Positions 24,420-29,666 of a DNA stretch of 64,000 nucleotides are shown here, in pieces; position 1 is the stretch's first letter; each line of letters starts with the position of its first letter. A program made the position numbers and the translations under genes. The stretch covers positions 1 through 64,000 of the forward strand of contig NZ_FNGG01000008.1 in NCBI RefSeq assembly GCF_900102915.1, written 5' to 3'. The stretch comes from Salinimicrobium catena. Lineage in GTDB: Bacteria > Bacteroidota > Bacteroidia > Flavobacteriales > Flavobacteriaceae. The notes below the pieces were generated by a model. It was given only the letters and a program-made list of their open reading frames with translations, ran no database searches and was not told where the DNA came from.

Positions 24420-26255
24420 TTAAAAAATAAAGGTTAGGTTTATATTAAAATTTCTCCCCGGCATCCACCGGTTTTCTACAGTTTCATAGGCAGTATTAAA
24501 AACATTTTGCACTCTCCCCCCTAGCTGGTAATTATCATTTTTCCCGAAGGTGTAAGAGGCTCCAATATTGGATACCATATAACTGTTCAAATTGTACCTG
24601 GAATTATTATCTGAGCGGGTAAAGACTTCCCCATTATATAAGAGCTGATACTCTATTTCCCAGGATTTAAAATTTCCCTGCCCCATAAAGGTTGCCTTGT
24701 GAAAGGGTACATATATCAATTGCTTTCCGGTTTGTTGGTTCTCAGAAATAGTAAAGGAATAGCTCCCCCTCAACGCCACCTGTATCTCTCCCAGGCCTTT
24801 TTCCCACTGCAGGTAAGCCTCTGTTCCATAGGTATGCACTTCGTCTTCATTGCGGGGGCGCCAAACCCCGCCGCTCTCCGGCAGCCATCTTATCATATCT
24901 TTAATGGCTATGTAATATCCAGTAAGATTCAGCTCCAATTGTCGCCATTTAAATTCATTTCCTATCTCTCCCTGCCAGGAAGTCTCTGGCTTTAAACCTG
25001 GTCTTCCGGCAGAGGTCCAGTAGAGATCATTATAAGTTGGGATCCGGAAATTTCTTGAGGCATTTACCTTGAGACGGTAAAGATCTGAGAAGCGGTAGAT
25101 CCCGCTCGAGGAAAATAAAATCGGACTTTCATAATTGCCGGTCACTTCCTTTCGAATACCACTCTCATAGCTGAATTTCTCTGTCGGCCGGTGCTTCATA
25201 AGTATCACTACCGAAAAAATATTCCTGCTATTCTCCCCCAGATTGCTTCCTTTTCCCTTAGTATTCGTGTTGGAAAGTACCGTGCTGAACTGCATTTTTT
25301 CAGACACAGAATAAGTCAGGTCGTATTTGAGGATAAAATTTTCTGCATCACCAAACGACGAATTATCAGAAGCAATGTCACTGTAATATTCATACTTCTC
25401 TTTTAAATAGGCCATTTTTAAAAGGGAAGTAAAAGCAGACATTTTGTTTTCCCATTCCAGTAAATACCGCATGTGGGCATCCTGATATTTGCTCCTGGTT
25501 TCTGACGGCCTTACTAAAGATAAATGACGTTCCCCGGAAAAAATTCCACTGTATAACCGAAAAATATTACTTGGATCCAAACGATAGGCTACACCCAGGT
25601 TAAAAGTGTTGTTATAGAACTGCCCGTTCATATTTTCACCACGGTCATTAGGGTACAGATAGTTATTATCTGAACTATTATGGGCACCCGATAACGATAC
25701 ACTCCAATTTCCTCTTGCGGCCTTTACACTGTACTGGGCATCTAAGGAATTATAGCTGCCATACCCCACATACAATTCGTTCTCCAGTTTCTCCTTAAAA
25801 GATAACCGTGTATTTAAGTGTACAGTCCCCCCTATAGCTCCGGTACCGTAGACCACACTCCCTCCTCCACCCCTAATGCTTATTTGATCATATGCGCCTG
25901 CATTGATTGTGTTGAAATCGGTTTGGCCGTTCAGTTGAGAATTGACATTAATTCCATTCCACAGAACTGCCGTGTGAGACGCAGCTGTTCCACGAAAAGA
26001 GGGAGAGGAAACCATCCCCAGCCCATTCTCCTTAAAATAAATGGGAGAATTATAATTTAATAAAGAAGTTAATAAAGGACGTGTGCCCCGTTTTAGAGAA
26101 TCCGGTATGGTAATGATTGTTTGCCCCGTAGAGAAGTCTTTCAATTTGGCGTCTATCACGACTTCCTCCAGCACATTGACAGAGTCTTTTTGTCCCAAGC
26201 CTTGAAGGACATATAGCAGGAATAGAACCAAGATGTAAATTTTCTTGCTTTTCAT
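24420..26255 (-). CDS. btuB: TonB-dependent vitamin B12 receptor (BtuB-like)
   Basis: A 611-residue outer-membrane receptor with signal peptide (KKIYILVLFLLYVLQGLGQ). An N-terminal plug domain follows (about residues 28-140: EVVIDAKLKDFS, SFRGTAASHTAVLWNGINVN, IRGGGGSVVYGTGAIGGTVH), then a beta-barrel ending in an aromatic residue (INLTFIF). It imports its ligand across the outer membrane with TonB energy. The cobalamin riboswitch directly upstream identifies B12 or a related corrinoid as the probable substrate. The BtuG-like gene follows without a gap. Confidence 0.85.
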   Translation of the reverse strand: MKSKKIYILVLFLLYVLQGLGQKDSVNVLEEVVIDAKLKDFSTGQTIITIPDSLKRGTRPLLTSLLNYNSPIYFKENGLGMVSSPSFRGTAASHTAVLWNGINVNSQLNGQTDFNTINAGAYDQISIRGGGGSVVYGTGAIGGTVHLNTRLSFKEKLENELYVGYGSYNSLDAQYSVKAARGNWSVSLSGAHNSSDNNYLYPNDRGENMNGQFYNNTFNLGVAYRLDPSNIFRLYSGIFSGERHLSLVRPSETRSKYQDAHMRYLLEWENKMSAFTSLLKMAYLKEKYEYYSDIASDNSSFGDAENFILKYDLTYSVSEKMQFSTVLSNTNTKGKGSNLGENSRNIFSVVILMKHRPTEKFSYESGIRKEVTGNYESPILFSSSGIYRFSDLYRLKVNASRNFRIPTYNDLYWTSAGRPGLKPETSWQGEIGNEFKWRQLELNLTGYYIAIKDMIRWLPESGGVWRPRNEDEVHTYGTEAYLQWEKGLGEIQVALRGSYSFTISENQQTGKQLIYVPFHKATFMGQGNFKSWEIEYQLLYNGEVFTRSDNNSRYNLNSYMVSNIGASYTFGKNDNYQLGGRVQNVFNTAYETVENRWMPGRNFNINLTFIF

Positions 26256-26299
26256 TTTCCACCGGCTTTTTTCCCGAAAGCCACAGGTTTAAAAAGTTG

Positions 26300-26618
26300 A
26301 ATTTGGCAGGTCTCCTGGCTCGCGTCCTTTTGTGCACCTTCCCGTTCTCAAGAACAGTGGTATGAAGTCTACAAAGGCATCCCAAAATGTGGGACTAAGC
26401 TTACAGTTGCGGGAACAGCTCAGGCTTATTTGAAGTTAGAAGTGAGATCTTAGAAGTTAGAAGTTTTACTTCCTGCTTCATTCGTCTTCCGGACTTCAAT
26501 CGAAAATGAGTTAAAATTCGAAATTCGTACTTCTAATTTCTAACTTCCTTTCTCCTGATTCCCTTTTAATCGGTGTTTTTAATTTCTGAACTTTCAGAAA
26601 ACAACCGAACCAAAATTT
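26300..26618 (-). promoter_or_regulatory. Cobalamin (B12) riboswitch with expanded internal stem
   Basis: On the minus strand the conserved core is plain: GAGCCAGGAGACCTGCC (the B12 box, about 26305-26322), CCCGCAACTGTAAGC, and GGGAAGGTG-like bases between. TTTGG (26610-26614) and CCAAA (26301-26305) can form the closing stem P1. The 5' element AAAAGGGAATCAGG is also present. Normally a loop with GGTGnAAATCC joins the two halves of the next stem. Here TCAGG and CCTGA are instead separated by 129 nt. It controls the btuB-like and btuG-like genes; high cobalamin should switch them off. A small GGCTTT/AAAGCC hairpin lies between the B12 box and the btuB ATG. Confidence 0.88.
26425..26553 (-). 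repeat. 129-nt self-complementary insertion inside the riboswitch
   Basis: The stretch between TCAGG and CCTGA of the riboswitch is AT-rich and made of GAAGTTAGAA-type words. GAAGTTAGAA (plus strand 26432-26441) pairs exactly with TTCTAACTTC (26538-26547), and further TTAGAAGT/ACTTCTAA words lie inside, so it can fold as an extension of the stem it interrupts. It resembles the word-rich spacers elsewhere in this window. Confidence 0.65.
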
Positions 26619-26624
26619 CTGGTA

Positions 26625-26659
26625 CGAAAATAAACATTTCAGCTTATCTCCCTATCAAA
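26625..26659 (-). promoter_or_regulatory. Putative promoter of the riboswitch transcript
   Basis: On the minus strand TTTG (26656-26659), a 23-bp spacer and TATTTTCG (26625-26632) resemble the Bacteroidota promoter with one mismatch. Transcription would begin just before the riboswitch P1 stem, as expected. Confidence 0.45.
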
Positions 26660-26673
26660 TTTTGAAATAATCT

Positions 26674-26681
26674 TACTTTTG
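26674..26681 (+). promoter_or_regulatory. Putative -7 box of the btuFCD-like operon
   Basis: TACTTTTG matches TAnnTTTG and ends eight bases before the ATG at 26690, so the transcript may be nearly leaderless. It sits back to back with the riboswitch promoter. Confidence 0.45.
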
Positions 26682-26689
26682 ATACAGAT

Positions 26690-27835
26690 ATGAAACCGCT
26701 TTTTCACATACTCCTGCTGTTTCTCTTCGGAATCTTCTTTGGCTGTAAGTCTGAAGAAGGCCGGAAAGAAATGGCAAAATTGCCTGATGGAAAAGAAATT
26801 CCCATCAAATACGCTTCGGGGCTTTCTATTACTGACTACGGAAATTTCCGAATCATCACTGTCAAAGATCCCTGGCCAAATGCCGACAGATCTTTCAAAT
26901 ACCTGTTGGCTGAAGAAAATGCGGAAATTCCCGAAGGACTAAAATTTGATCAGAAGATCAAGGTTCCGGTGCAAAAGATCGTCGTCACCTCCACTACGCA
27001 CATTCCTTCTTTGGAAATATTGAATAAAGAAGAAACGCTGGTGGGCTTTCCCGGGCTGGATTATATTTCTTCGGAAGCCACTCGAAAATTGATCGCTGAA
27101 GGCAAGATCAAAGAACTTGGCAAAAATGAAGCTTTGAACACCGAAAGCCTGCTCAGCCTCCAACCCGATTTGATCGTGGCCTTCTCCATCGACGGCAGCA
27201 ACAAGAGCCTGAACACGGTAGAAAAAAGCGGAATTCCGGTAGTCTTCAATTCAGACTGGACCGAAAATTCTCCCCTCGGAAAGGCCGAATGGATCAAATT
27301 CTTTGGCGCCCTCTACGGAAAAATAGATTCGGCAAATTCCTTTTTTGAGCAAATAGAGAAAGAATATAATCAAGCCAAAGAACTGGCAAAAAGCGCGGAA
27401 GAAAGCCCATCTGTAGTCGCGGGCGCCATGTATAAAGATCAGTGGTACCTGCCCGCAGGAAACAGCTGGCAGGCAATCTTCCTGGAAGATGCCAATTCAG
27501 AATATCTTTTTGCAGATTCTGAAGGAACGGGTAGTCTGTCCCTGTCTTTTGAAGCTGTACTATCACAAGCCGCTTCTGCCGATTTCTGGATAGGACCGGC
27601 GCAATTTCAGTCATATGAGGAAATGCGCAGTGCCTCCCCGCATTACACCCGATTTTCAGCATTTCAGGAAAAACAGGTCTACACCTTCAGCAGTGAAAAA
27701 GGAGAAACCGGCGGCGTCATCTTTTACGAACTGGCGCCTATTCGTCCGGACCTGGTATTGAAAGACCTGATCTCAATCCTTCACCCCTCACTGTTGCCGG
27801 AGTATCAAACAACATTCTATAAACCCTTACAGTAA
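26690..27835 (+). CDS. ABC transporter substrate-binding lipoprotein (BtuF-like)
   Basis: A 381-residue lipoprotein (lipobox LFGIFFGC) with the two-lobed class III periplasmic binding fold: the KIVVTSTTHIPSLEIL strand near the start of lobe 1, GKNEALNTESLLSLQPDLIV before the linker helix, and lobe 2 from about residue 225. Such proteins carry B12 or iron chelates to a FecCD-type permease. The divergent riboswitch-controlled B12 receptor makes cobalamin the likely ligand. Permease and ATPase genes follow with no gap. The riboswitch itself reads the other way and cannot control this gene in cis. Confidence 0.85.
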   Translation: MKPLFHILLLFLFGIFFGCKSEEGRKEMAKLPDGKEIPIKYASGLSITDYGNFRIITVKDPWPNADRSFKYLLAEENAEIPEGLKFDQKIKVPVQKIVVTSTTHIPSLEILNKEETLVGFPGLDYISSEATRKLIAEGKIKELGKNEALNTESLLSLQPDLIVAFSIDGSNKSLNTVEKSGIPVVFNSDWTENSPLGKAEWIKFFGALYGKIDSANSFFEQIEKEYNQAKELAKSAEESPSVVAGAMYKDQWYLPAGNSWQAIFLEDANSEYLFADSEGTGSLSLSFEAVLSQAASADFWIGPAQFQSYEEMRSASPHYTRFSAFQEKQVYTFSSEKGETGGVIFYELAPIRPDLVLKDLISILHPSLLPEYQTTFYKPLQ

Positions 27836-28867
27836 TTGAAAAGTTCCAAAAGGTATAGCATAAGCCTCATGTTGTTGTTGATCGCGACAATAGTCACCTG
27901 GTTCTTGAACGTAAGCCTGGGTTCGGTAAGCATACCTTTTGACGAAATACTCGGGATGATATTCTCCGACGGGAACAGTAAAGAAAGCTGGCGTTACATT
28001 ATCATGGATTATCGTATACCGAAAGCTTTTACTTCGGTTTTGGCAGGATCTGGACTCGCGGTAAGCGGAATGTTGATGCAGACCATGTTCCGAAATCCGT
28101 TAGCCGGCCCTTATGTGCTGGGTCTTAGCAGCGGCGCCAGTCTGGGAGTGGCGCTGGTATTGATGGGCGCTTCTCTTTTCGGAGGGATCGCGGCTACCGC
28201 CGTATTTTCAAGCTGGGGTCTGGTGATCGCCTCGAGTGTGGGAAGTTTACTGGTATTGCTCGCGGTAATGCTGGCTTCGATAAGGTTGAAAGACACCATG
28301 GCCATCCTCATCATCGGGCTGATGTTTGCCAGCCTTAGCTCGGCCGTAGTGAGCGTGCTGGCCTACTTTAGTCCCGCTGCCCAATTACAGCAATACGTTT
28401 TCTGGTCCTACGGAAGCGTGGGCGACCTTTCCTGGAACGAACTGGGGGTACTGGCATTCTTCTGGTTCCTGGGAACCGGAATAGCCATTTATAGCATAAA
28501 GAACCTCAACTCCCTGCTTTTAGGGGAGCAATACGCCCGAAGCCTGGGAATGAACATTGGGAAAAACCGTGCCTTATTGATCATTTCCACAAGCTTCCTG
28601 GCAGGAAGCATCACGGCTTTTGCCGGCCCCATCGCTTTTGTAGGCCTGGCGGTGCCGCATTTGATACGACAGGTGATCCCGGTGAATGATCATAAAATTC
28701 TATTACCCGCTGTCATTTTGGGAGGCGCGATATTGATGTTACTCTGCGACATCCTGGCCCAGCTACCCGGAACAGACCTTACATTGCCTATTAATGCGAT
28801 CACTTCACTAGTTGGGGCGCCGGTGGTGATCTGGCTGCTGGTAAGGAAACGAAAATTCCTTTTTTAA
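27836..28867 (+). CDS. FecCD-family ABC permease (BtuC-like)
   Basis: A 343-residue inner-membrane permease of the FecCD/BtuC family, with about ten hydrophobic helices. Signature stretches are SGMLMQTMFRNPLAGPYVLG and, near the C-terminus, GPIAFVGLAVPHLIRQV, which precedes the ATPase contact region. It would move the ligand of the upstream binding protein into the cytoplasm. The start is a TTG on the base right after the upstream TAA, giving MKSSKRYSISLM; the next ATG (about 27869) would cut into the first helix. The ATPase gene starts one base after its stop. Confidence 0.88.
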   Translation: MKSSKRYSISLMLLLIATIVTWFLNVSLGSVSIPFDEILGMIFSDGNSKESWRYIIMDYRIPKAFTSVLAGSGLAVSGMLMQTMFRNPLAGPYVLGLSSGASLGVALVLMGASLFGGIAATAVFSSWGLVIASSVGSLLVLLAVMLASIRLKDTMAILIIGLMFASLSSAVVSVLAYFSPAAQLQQYVFWSYGSVGDLSWNELGVLAFFWFLGTGIAIYSIKNLNSLLLGEQYARSLGMNIGKNRALLIISTSFLAGSITAFAGPIAFVGLAVPHLIRQVIPVNDHKILLPAVILGGAILMLLCDILAQLPGTDLTLPINAITSLVGAPVVIWLLVRKRKFLF

Positions 28868-28868
28868 G

Positions 28869-29666
28869 ATGCAGAAGAACGTAGAACAAAATATCGTGCT
28901 GCAAACAAAGGACCTTCAGACCGGTTATCGCAAAAAAGACCGGGAAACGGTAATTAGTTCGGGAATCGATGTATCTGTGCAGGAGAGGGAATTGGTGGCC
29001 GTGATCGGGGTGAACGGAGTGGGAAAATCTACTTTTTTGAGAACCCTGAGCGGAATCCAGCCAGAATTGGGCGGAAAGGTACTCATCAACGGGCATGACA
29101 GGAAAGAGATTTCTTCGGAAAAACTCGCGGCCCTCATTAGCCTGGTCCTGACCGAACAACCAATTTCAAAGAACCTGGGCGTAGCCGAACTGGTCGCCCT
29201 GGGAAGACAGCCGTATACCAACTGGATCGGTAATCTTTCCGCAGAAGATAGAGGCCAGGTTAAAAAAGCATTGCAGCTGGTGAACATTGGAGACATTCAG
29301 CATAAAAAATGCTATGAATTAAGTGACGGACAACTTCAAAAAGTATTGATCGCCCGGGCTCTGGCCCAGGACACCCCGATCATGATCCTGGATGAACCCA
29401 CTTCCCATTTAGACATGTACCACAAAGCCCAGGTGCTGAAACTTCTGAAGCAACTCACTGACCAAACCGGAAAAGCTATCCTTTTTGCTACCCACGAGAT
29501 CAACCTGGCGCTGGAATTGTGCGACAAGATCATTCTCATGAAACCCGACGGCGTTATTCAGGGAAGCCCTGAAGAACTGATCCAAAAAAGGGCTTTTGAA
29601 AGCATATTTCCCGAGGACCTTATCTTTTTCGATCCGGCTACAAGATCTTTCAGAATAAAATCCTGA
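28869..29666 (+). CDS. ABC transporter ATP-binding protein (BtuD-like)
   Basis: A 265-residue ATPase that powers the FecCD-type importer encoded just upstream. It shows Walker A GVNGVGKSTFLRTLSG, the Q-loop region LVLTEQPISKNLGVAEL, the signature as ELSDGQLQKVLIARALAQ, and Walker B MILDEPTSHLD. The H-loop is ATHEINLA. The LSDGQ signature and ALGRQPYTNW are typical of siderophore, heme and B12 importers. It closes the three-gene operon that starts at 26690. Confidence 0.9.
   Translation: MQKNVEQNIVLQTKDLQTGYRKKDRETVISSGIDVSVQERELVAVIGVNGVGKSTFLRTLSGIQPELGGKVLINGHDRKEISSEKLAALISLVLTEQPISKNLGVAELVALGRQPYTNWIGNLSAEDRGQVKKALQLVNIGDIQHKKCYELSDGQLQKVLIARALAQDTPIMILDEPTSHLDMYHKAQVLKLLKQLTDQTGKAILFATHEINLALELCDKIILMKPDGVIQGSPEELIQKRAFESIFPEDLIFFDPATRSFRIKS

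Follow-up and report, generated by a model that had tools for sequence, protein, structure and literature searches.

Published descriptions of the cobalamin riboswitch class name an L5 kissing loop (in passages of PMC9600662) and describe interdomain docking (in passages of PMC10907184, which also present the T-loop as a motif that organises the junction). In AdoCbl and FMN aptamers the T-loop triloop of P4 is sometimes interrupted by a helix, and variable insertions typically fold and leave the core undisturbed, according to the relevant passages of Barrick & Breaker 2007 (PMC2258182). Helix insertions in the L4 T-loop are, as those passages indicate, already known in kind.

The window analysed here, a 64,000-nucleotide stretch of DNA from the marine bacterium Salinimicrobium catena, contains a single above-threshold match to the cobalamin riboswitch model RF00174, located on the minus strand (26629-26288; cmscan, Infernal). 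It scores 78.9 bits (E = 9.3e-18), exceeding the gathering score of 31.5 bits, and spans model positions 1-189 of 189. This match delimits a full-length aptamer (26288-26629, minus strand), and a search of positions 26200-26700 against Rfam at a loose threshold yielded nothing else credible. The conserved core strands and the B12 box (GAGCCAGGAGACCTGCC, 26305-26321, minus strand) are present in both the sequence and the covariance model alignment, and CCCGCAACTGTAAGC and AAAAGGGAATCAGG can be read directly on the minus strand along with the B12 box. L5 carries the kissing sequence UUCCCG (26410-26415, minus strand), which is complementary to CGGGAA (26276-26271) in the loop of a P13-L13 hairpin (26264-26282, minus strand; stem GGCUUU/AAAGCC) directly ahead of the ATG. 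Judged by its letters and position, this hairpin would be the expression platform adjoining the start codon, with L13 pairing with L5. Because of what is established for the class in the passages available from PMC9600662 and PMC10907184, we infer translational control through this L5-L13 kissing pair: cobalamin binding would stabilise the pair beside the start codon and lower translation.

The regulated gene (24420-26255, minus strand) encodes a btuB-like TonB-dependent receptor with matches to Pfam PF00593 and PF07715 over the cut-off. Its best NCBIfam model is TIGR01779 TonB-B12, at 108.1 bits and under that model's cut-off of 599.7, and the riboswitch sits upstream of a gene of probable cobalamin-uptake type. 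In keeping with this assignment, divergently oriented genes on the plus strand (26690-29666) encode a substrate-binding protein, a FecCD permease and an ABC ATPase; these transporter genes begin ~60 nucleotides from the riboswitch. The genome has two further cobalamin riboswitches, both with the ordinary GTGAAAATC L4 loop. The third cobalamin riboswitch (L003, 112683-112805 of G000:C5) lies ahead of an apparent gene remnant (L003 828-1623), seen by eye as short open reading frames of 114 and 94 amino acids in different frames, which we take to be nrdB/nrdA; it is an apparent orphan riboswitch, and a fuller nrd-like copy (L002) has its own cobalamin riboswitch.

The arms of P4, TCAGG (26554-26558, minus strand) and CCTGA (26420-26424, minus strand), enclose a self-complementary L4 insert of 129 nucleotides (26425-26553, minus strand) built of 7-nucleotide repeat words. 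The B12 box, the P4 arms and this enclosure had been reported with correct letters and coordinates in an initial annotation made from the sequence. The usual L4 loop measures 7 nucleotides, so the net gain in the window is 122 nucleotides, which Infernal places between consensus positions 58 and 59 of RF00174. A normal GGTGnAAATCC loop, sought by aligning the interval to the RF00174 covariance model, is absent. The same annotation held that the insert is not random, and this was borne out: the folding energy of the insert lies 3.2 SD below that of dinucleotide shuffles, and the calculated pairing probability of P4 is 0.91, versus a mean of 0.17 when the insert is shuffled, with 1 of 20 shuffles reaching 0.91.

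An assembly artefact, which the annotation had raised as a concern, is ruled out by the presence of an L4 of 104-154 nucleotides at the same place, ahead of the btuB-like gene, in 10 of 11 other Salinimicrobium genomes. The exception (G001, 74% complete) has a 17-nucleotide L4 with a small hairpin between T-loop letters. This distribution suggests that the insert is old and has been inherited within the genus. Searching genome contigs for an AAG-ending pattern on the 3' side of L4 recovered 17 loci (Salinimicrobium 9, Christiangramia/Gramella 5, Aequorivita 2, Flavobacterium cyanobacteriorum 1); the pattern requires AAG and an exact flank, and members with other loops fall outside its reach. 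Outside Salinimicrobium, L4 loops of this AAG type range from 6 nucleotides (F. cyanobacteriorum) through 20 (G. jeungdoensis) to more than 100. Subsequent comparisons use a variant set of 19 loci, comprising 11 from Salinimicrobium, 5 from Christiangramia/Gramella, 2 from Aequorivita and 1 from Flavobacterium. An L13 word complementary to L5 (CGGGAA, CGGGAT or CGGGT) lies near the ATG in 19 of these 19 loci. Their L6 is as usual, CCACTG and GGGAAGG, as read from the letters, since an automatic count hit an upstream CACTT in 9 of the 19. In two Aequorivita loci (L095 and L104), the longest ATG frame starting within 200 nucleotides past the riboswitch has 99 and 72 amino acids, and the downstream gene there is perhaps broken or different.

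The window keeps the two G-C pairs that close the T-loop (GG/CC of TCAGG/CCTGA). In Salinimicrobium, the U-A pair with its GNR triloop is absent, the first L4 letter being A or G in 11 of 11 copies, and the R place is occupied by C or T in 10 of 11. The U is kept by three of the other eight variant loci (L091, L092, L100).

The annotation had proposed that the ends of the insert pair perfectly, such that the stem is lengthened rather than broken. GAAGTTAGAA and TTCTAACTTC, set 6 and 7 nucleotides inward of the P4 arms and so close to the ends of the insert, can indeed form a perfect helix of 10 base pairs, but this is not the pairing that other species keep. Likewise, the lengthened stem stands for the window, where a long hairpin is the lowest-energy fold (-35.9 versus -33.8 kcal/mol for a three-way junction), but not for the genus, whose common arrangement appears to be the junction. 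In that arrangement, the 5' arm of P4a (GAAAG, 26548-26552, minus strand; weak in the window, and identified by comparison with 10 relatives) pairs with TTTTC (26502-26506, minus strand; likewise assigned by comparison with relatives). The outer arms of P4b follow, GAAG (26494-26497, minus strand) and CTTC (26432-26435, minus strand); in all 11 Salinimicrobium copies, the CTTC arm is the final such word ahead of the AAG strand. GAAG is likewise present in 11 of 11, partly by construction, as the parsing rule searches for it. Beyond P4b come seven nucleotides ending in AAG; in the window this strand is AAATAAG (26425-26431, minus strand), in the position that the 3' half of a T-loop would normally occupy, and its AAG end is found in 11 of 11 copies.

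In 9 of 11 Salinimicrobium copies, P4a begins with the first nucleotide of L4, and the second arm of the helix runs right up to GAAG. Three nucleotides separate the second arm from GAAG in S. marinum, and the window has the same three-nucleotide linker with P4a offset by one. The helix is 5 base pairs long in the window, starting from the second L4 nucleotide, and 7 to at least 9 base pairs long in the ten relatives, where pairs were counted up to 9. Over seven P4a positions in the 11 copies, 74 of 77 cells are paired, whereas permuted arms average 54.5 and 0 of 5000 permutations match the observed value; the choice of the best GAAG makes the pairing somewhat too high, and the species are related. 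All three unpaired cells come from the window row, which was read with the wrong arm (4 scattered pairs of 7). With that row excluded, position 3 is invariant and each of the other six carries two or more standard pair types; the two-sided changes include the replacement of G-C by A-U at positions 1 and 2. The comparison of sequences thus favours a three-way junction of P4a and P4b as the arrangement common to Salinimicrobium, and unselected templated mutation of near-palindromes can also produce such joint changes. Folding calculations rank the junction first in 6 of the 11 copies; in the other 5, including the window, another fold is better by 0.8-5.5 kcal/mol.

Inserts from elsewhere were compared by means of 209 places read from riboswitch matches listed for the order, 195 of them in the window's family, Flavobacteriaceae. 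Of these family places, 193 could be classified, giving 133 ordinary and 60 longer loops after one misparse was corrected by eye; the ratio 60/193 is no exact frequency, because reading began with low-scoring matches and covered neither 11 listed high-scoring matches (spans of 189-199 nucleotides) nor any unlisted ones. Outside the family, 13 of 14 places were classified and 0 were longer, again after one correction by eye. The automatic counts had been 61/193 and 1/13 extended, with L334 and L025 misparsed (an ordinary loop lies further on); L144 was set to ordinary by eye. The unclassified places are L033, L159 and L369, of which L033 and L159 appear ordinary by eye. The usual length is exceeded by 45 nucleotides or more in 21 of the 60 longer family loops. 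Of 49 loci from other parts of Bacteroidota, 47 could be parsed. Longer loops occur in 18, of which 17 lie outside the family; since 20 of the 49 were picked for length, this is no frequency. Locus L310 (G238), from another Bacteroidota family, has a long G+C-rich L4 insert (a 165-nucleotide stretch) with normal T-loop letters, and long L4 inserts therefore extend beyond Flavobacteriaceae.

U is the first loop letter in 59 of the 60 longer family loops. An earlier count over 143 distinct sequences, which excluded about 50 higher-scoring listed matches (40 of these entered the later count), found that 52 of 55 extended loops end in A-x-T-C, and the insert therefore sits at the variable position of the T-loop. 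The annotation's suggestion of a displaced tertiary-contact loop is a poor fit to most insert-bearing relatives, in which the T-loop letters simply flank the insert. In Salinimicrobium these letters are altered and not visibly moved.

Long inserts exhibit a strong 7-nucleotide period. Periodicity z values, which are inflated by the relatedness of the sequences, are 15.2, 13.1 and 5.6 at lags 7, 14 and 21 for the 11 Salinimicrobium inserts, and 15.7, 13.1 and 7.6 for the 21 inserts of at least 45 nucleotides from other genera. The inserts also fold well, with mean z values relative to shuffles of -3.7 (Salinimicrobium) and -2.8 (other genera); the margin falls short of 2 SD in 1 of 11 (-1.99) and 8 of 21, respectively. 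With 20 shuffled inserts per sequence as a control, mean P4 pairing probability is 0.90 versus 0.26 in Salinimicrobium, where 11 of 11 exceed the mean of their shuffles, and 0.76 versus 0.28 in the other genera, where 18 of 21 do. P4 is weak in Salinimicrobium L051 (probability 0.47); among the other genera, 4 of 21 fall below 0.4 and 3 of 21 (L161, L180, L195) are no better than shuffles. One insert rich in pyrimidine heptads (TACTTTG, TACTTCA, TACTTCG) has an arm without an obvious partner (L134, G100:C2:396596-396842).

Repeat words are common to L4 inserts and intergenic repeats. A search of the S. catena genome with the window insert gave 16 further matches at E values up to 1, falling at 14 distinct places. 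A narrower search with the same query yielded 13 further matches there and 10 in a second Salinimicrobium genome; five genomes from other genera contributed 0, 1, 3, 1 and 1. Apart from the insert's match to itself, the strongest match came from G214 rather than from S. catena, and the matches listed for G009 do not include the L4 of that genome. When the insert of G214 served as query, the two Salinimicrobium genomes gave 0 and 1 matches and the five others gave 3, 0, 3 (including itself), 12 (including that genome's own L4) and 2, with more in G111 than in G214. These results are suggestive of a fit between the repeat words of an insert and its host genome, albeit not a strict one. Arrays of 7-nucleotide period number 6 in 400 kb of the S. 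catena genome, versus 0 for periods of 5, 6, 8, 9 and 10. Only 1 such array was counted in 200 kb of a genome with a long L4 insert and 1 in 200 kb of a genome without one, so we draw no link between array density and L4 inserts.

The history of the locus appears complex. A BtuB tree groups the species differently from their L4 inserts, and a tree-based count of paired changes was therefore dropped. TH3 and S. sediminilitoris have close BtuB proteins (0.06 changes per site) and different inserts. S. terrae and S. sediminilitoris have nearly identical L4 inserts with BtuB proteins of different clades. The mismatch between inserts and BtuB in these sequences (L053, L056, L054) points to mosaic exchange at the btuB/L4 locus.

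Our preferred reading, to which we assign a probability of about 0.7, is that this is a working translational cobalamin riboswitch of the btuB-like gene whose L4 is a landing and growth site for 7-nucleotide repeat DNA. At the level of sequence and calculated folding, the core, L5, L13 and B12 box are kept, and the insert is nearly genus-wide, fast-changing, self-complementary and permissive of P4. The insert would be directed away from the core and would form its own small domain, either P4a plus P4b or the long hairpin; it may do little harm for these reasons. In the Salinimicrobium L4 the T-loop has lost its U (T1) and, in all copies but one, its R (T4); stacked helices and an A-rich strand that ends in AAG would stand in its place. 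That strand probably replaces part of the usual L4-L6 contact, or the RNA does without it. The most economical account is that an outward loop collects and tolerates repeat DNA provided that it folds on itself, and that one lineage rebuilt or gave up the motif. A stronger version, unlikely in our estimation, is that Salinimicrobium and some Christiangramia and Aequorivita rebuilt L4 through the growth of 7-nucleotide repeats, such that a junction of stacked helices with the A-rich AAG strand makes the L4-L6 contact without a T-loop. If true, repetitive DNA would have been turned into a tertiary-contact element of a riboswitch.

The annotation had balanced a working variant against an insertion that damaged ligand control. 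Intact boxes, L5-L13 complementarity, genus-wide presence and an insert calculated to permit P4 lend support to the former. A broken riboswitch, with the receptor gene constantly expressed, could account for the missing U and R and for a score (78.9 bits) below that of many relatives, and loss of the T-loop could weaken ligand binding since this motif is said to organise the junction (in passages of PMC10907184). However, a dead switch should decay, whereas the aptamer boxes, L5 and L13 are retained in the 11 Salinimicrobium copies although the insert changes fast, and P4 still pairs in calculations; damage is not supported, and we regard it as distinctly improbable. A very remote prospect is that the insert acts as an additional sensor or regulatory domain, such as one that switches between the long hairpin and the three-way junction. 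The energies of the two folds differ by only 2.1 kcal/mol in the window and by 0.8 kcal/mol in S. profundisediminis, but repeat words alone would give two near-equal folds, and no conserved inner sequence was seen in the inserts.

A far more serious contender, for which we would give somewhat less than even odds, is that repeats simply accumulate as neutral passengers in the outward-facing L4, their complementarity arising from inverted copying or templated mutation and not from selection. Loop lengths of 6 to 154 nucleotides among relatives, the words held in common with intergenic repeats, and the differing inserts of TH3 and S. sediminilitoris despite their close BtuB proteins are all in keeping with such accumulation. 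A passenger, however, need not keep register, and in 9 of 11 species P4a starts from the first L4 nucleotide with P4b following at once; the AAG strand is also constant in the 11 Salinimicrobium copies. This account is compatible with a working riboswitch and overlaps our preferred reading of a functional switch with an L4 that gathers repeats.

Three aspects of these findings are apparently new. One is the 7-nucleotide periodicity of the long inserts together with the words they have in common with intergenic repeats; a search of the open-licence literature by title and abstract start found no report of 7-nucleotide repeats in cobalamin riboswitches. The others are that the inserts, in model calculations, mostly let P4 form, and that Salinimicrobium sequences have lost the U and nearly always the R of the T-loop in favour of a constant strand ending in AAG. 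Because one riboswitch offers a natural series of loops from 6 to 154 nucleotides at one spot, both the need for the L4 T-loop and the tolerance of an RNA for repeat DNA become directly testable. The findings also expose a blind spot of the RF00174 model, in which this L4 domain is treated as an unmodelled insert.

Set against known systems, the locus resembles the translational btuB type of RF00174 in its full-length match, its B12 box and its L5-L13 words by the start codon of a TonB receptor, and differs in that the T-loop of L4 is swapped for a folded insert of 129 nucleotides. STRR repeats have heptamer units. They reportedly occur inside cyanobacterial RNase P RNA (work attributed to Vioque, 1997). 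That case likewise places dispersed short tandem repeats within a structured RNA; it involves another RNA and another phylum, and many inserts described here consist of two complementary arms. Intergenic arrays of heptamer direct repeats are described for Gramella forsetii and Aequorivita sublithincola in passages of PMC4679880. The genera of these species also include members with an AAG-type L4, but the word there is TAACTGA, and the term riboswitch is absent from the main text of that source. The closest precedent, as portrayed in the passages of PMC2258182, is the helix-interrupted T-loop, which likewise has a P4-loop insert that folds as a helix and, as here, keeps the five P4 pairs. There, the T-loop letters flank the helix. 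The Salinimicrobium copies, by contrast, have two helices in the interval and lack the U as well as, in all but one case, the R. Unlike that precedent as described, the Salinimicrobium inserts are long and periodic at 7 nucleotides.
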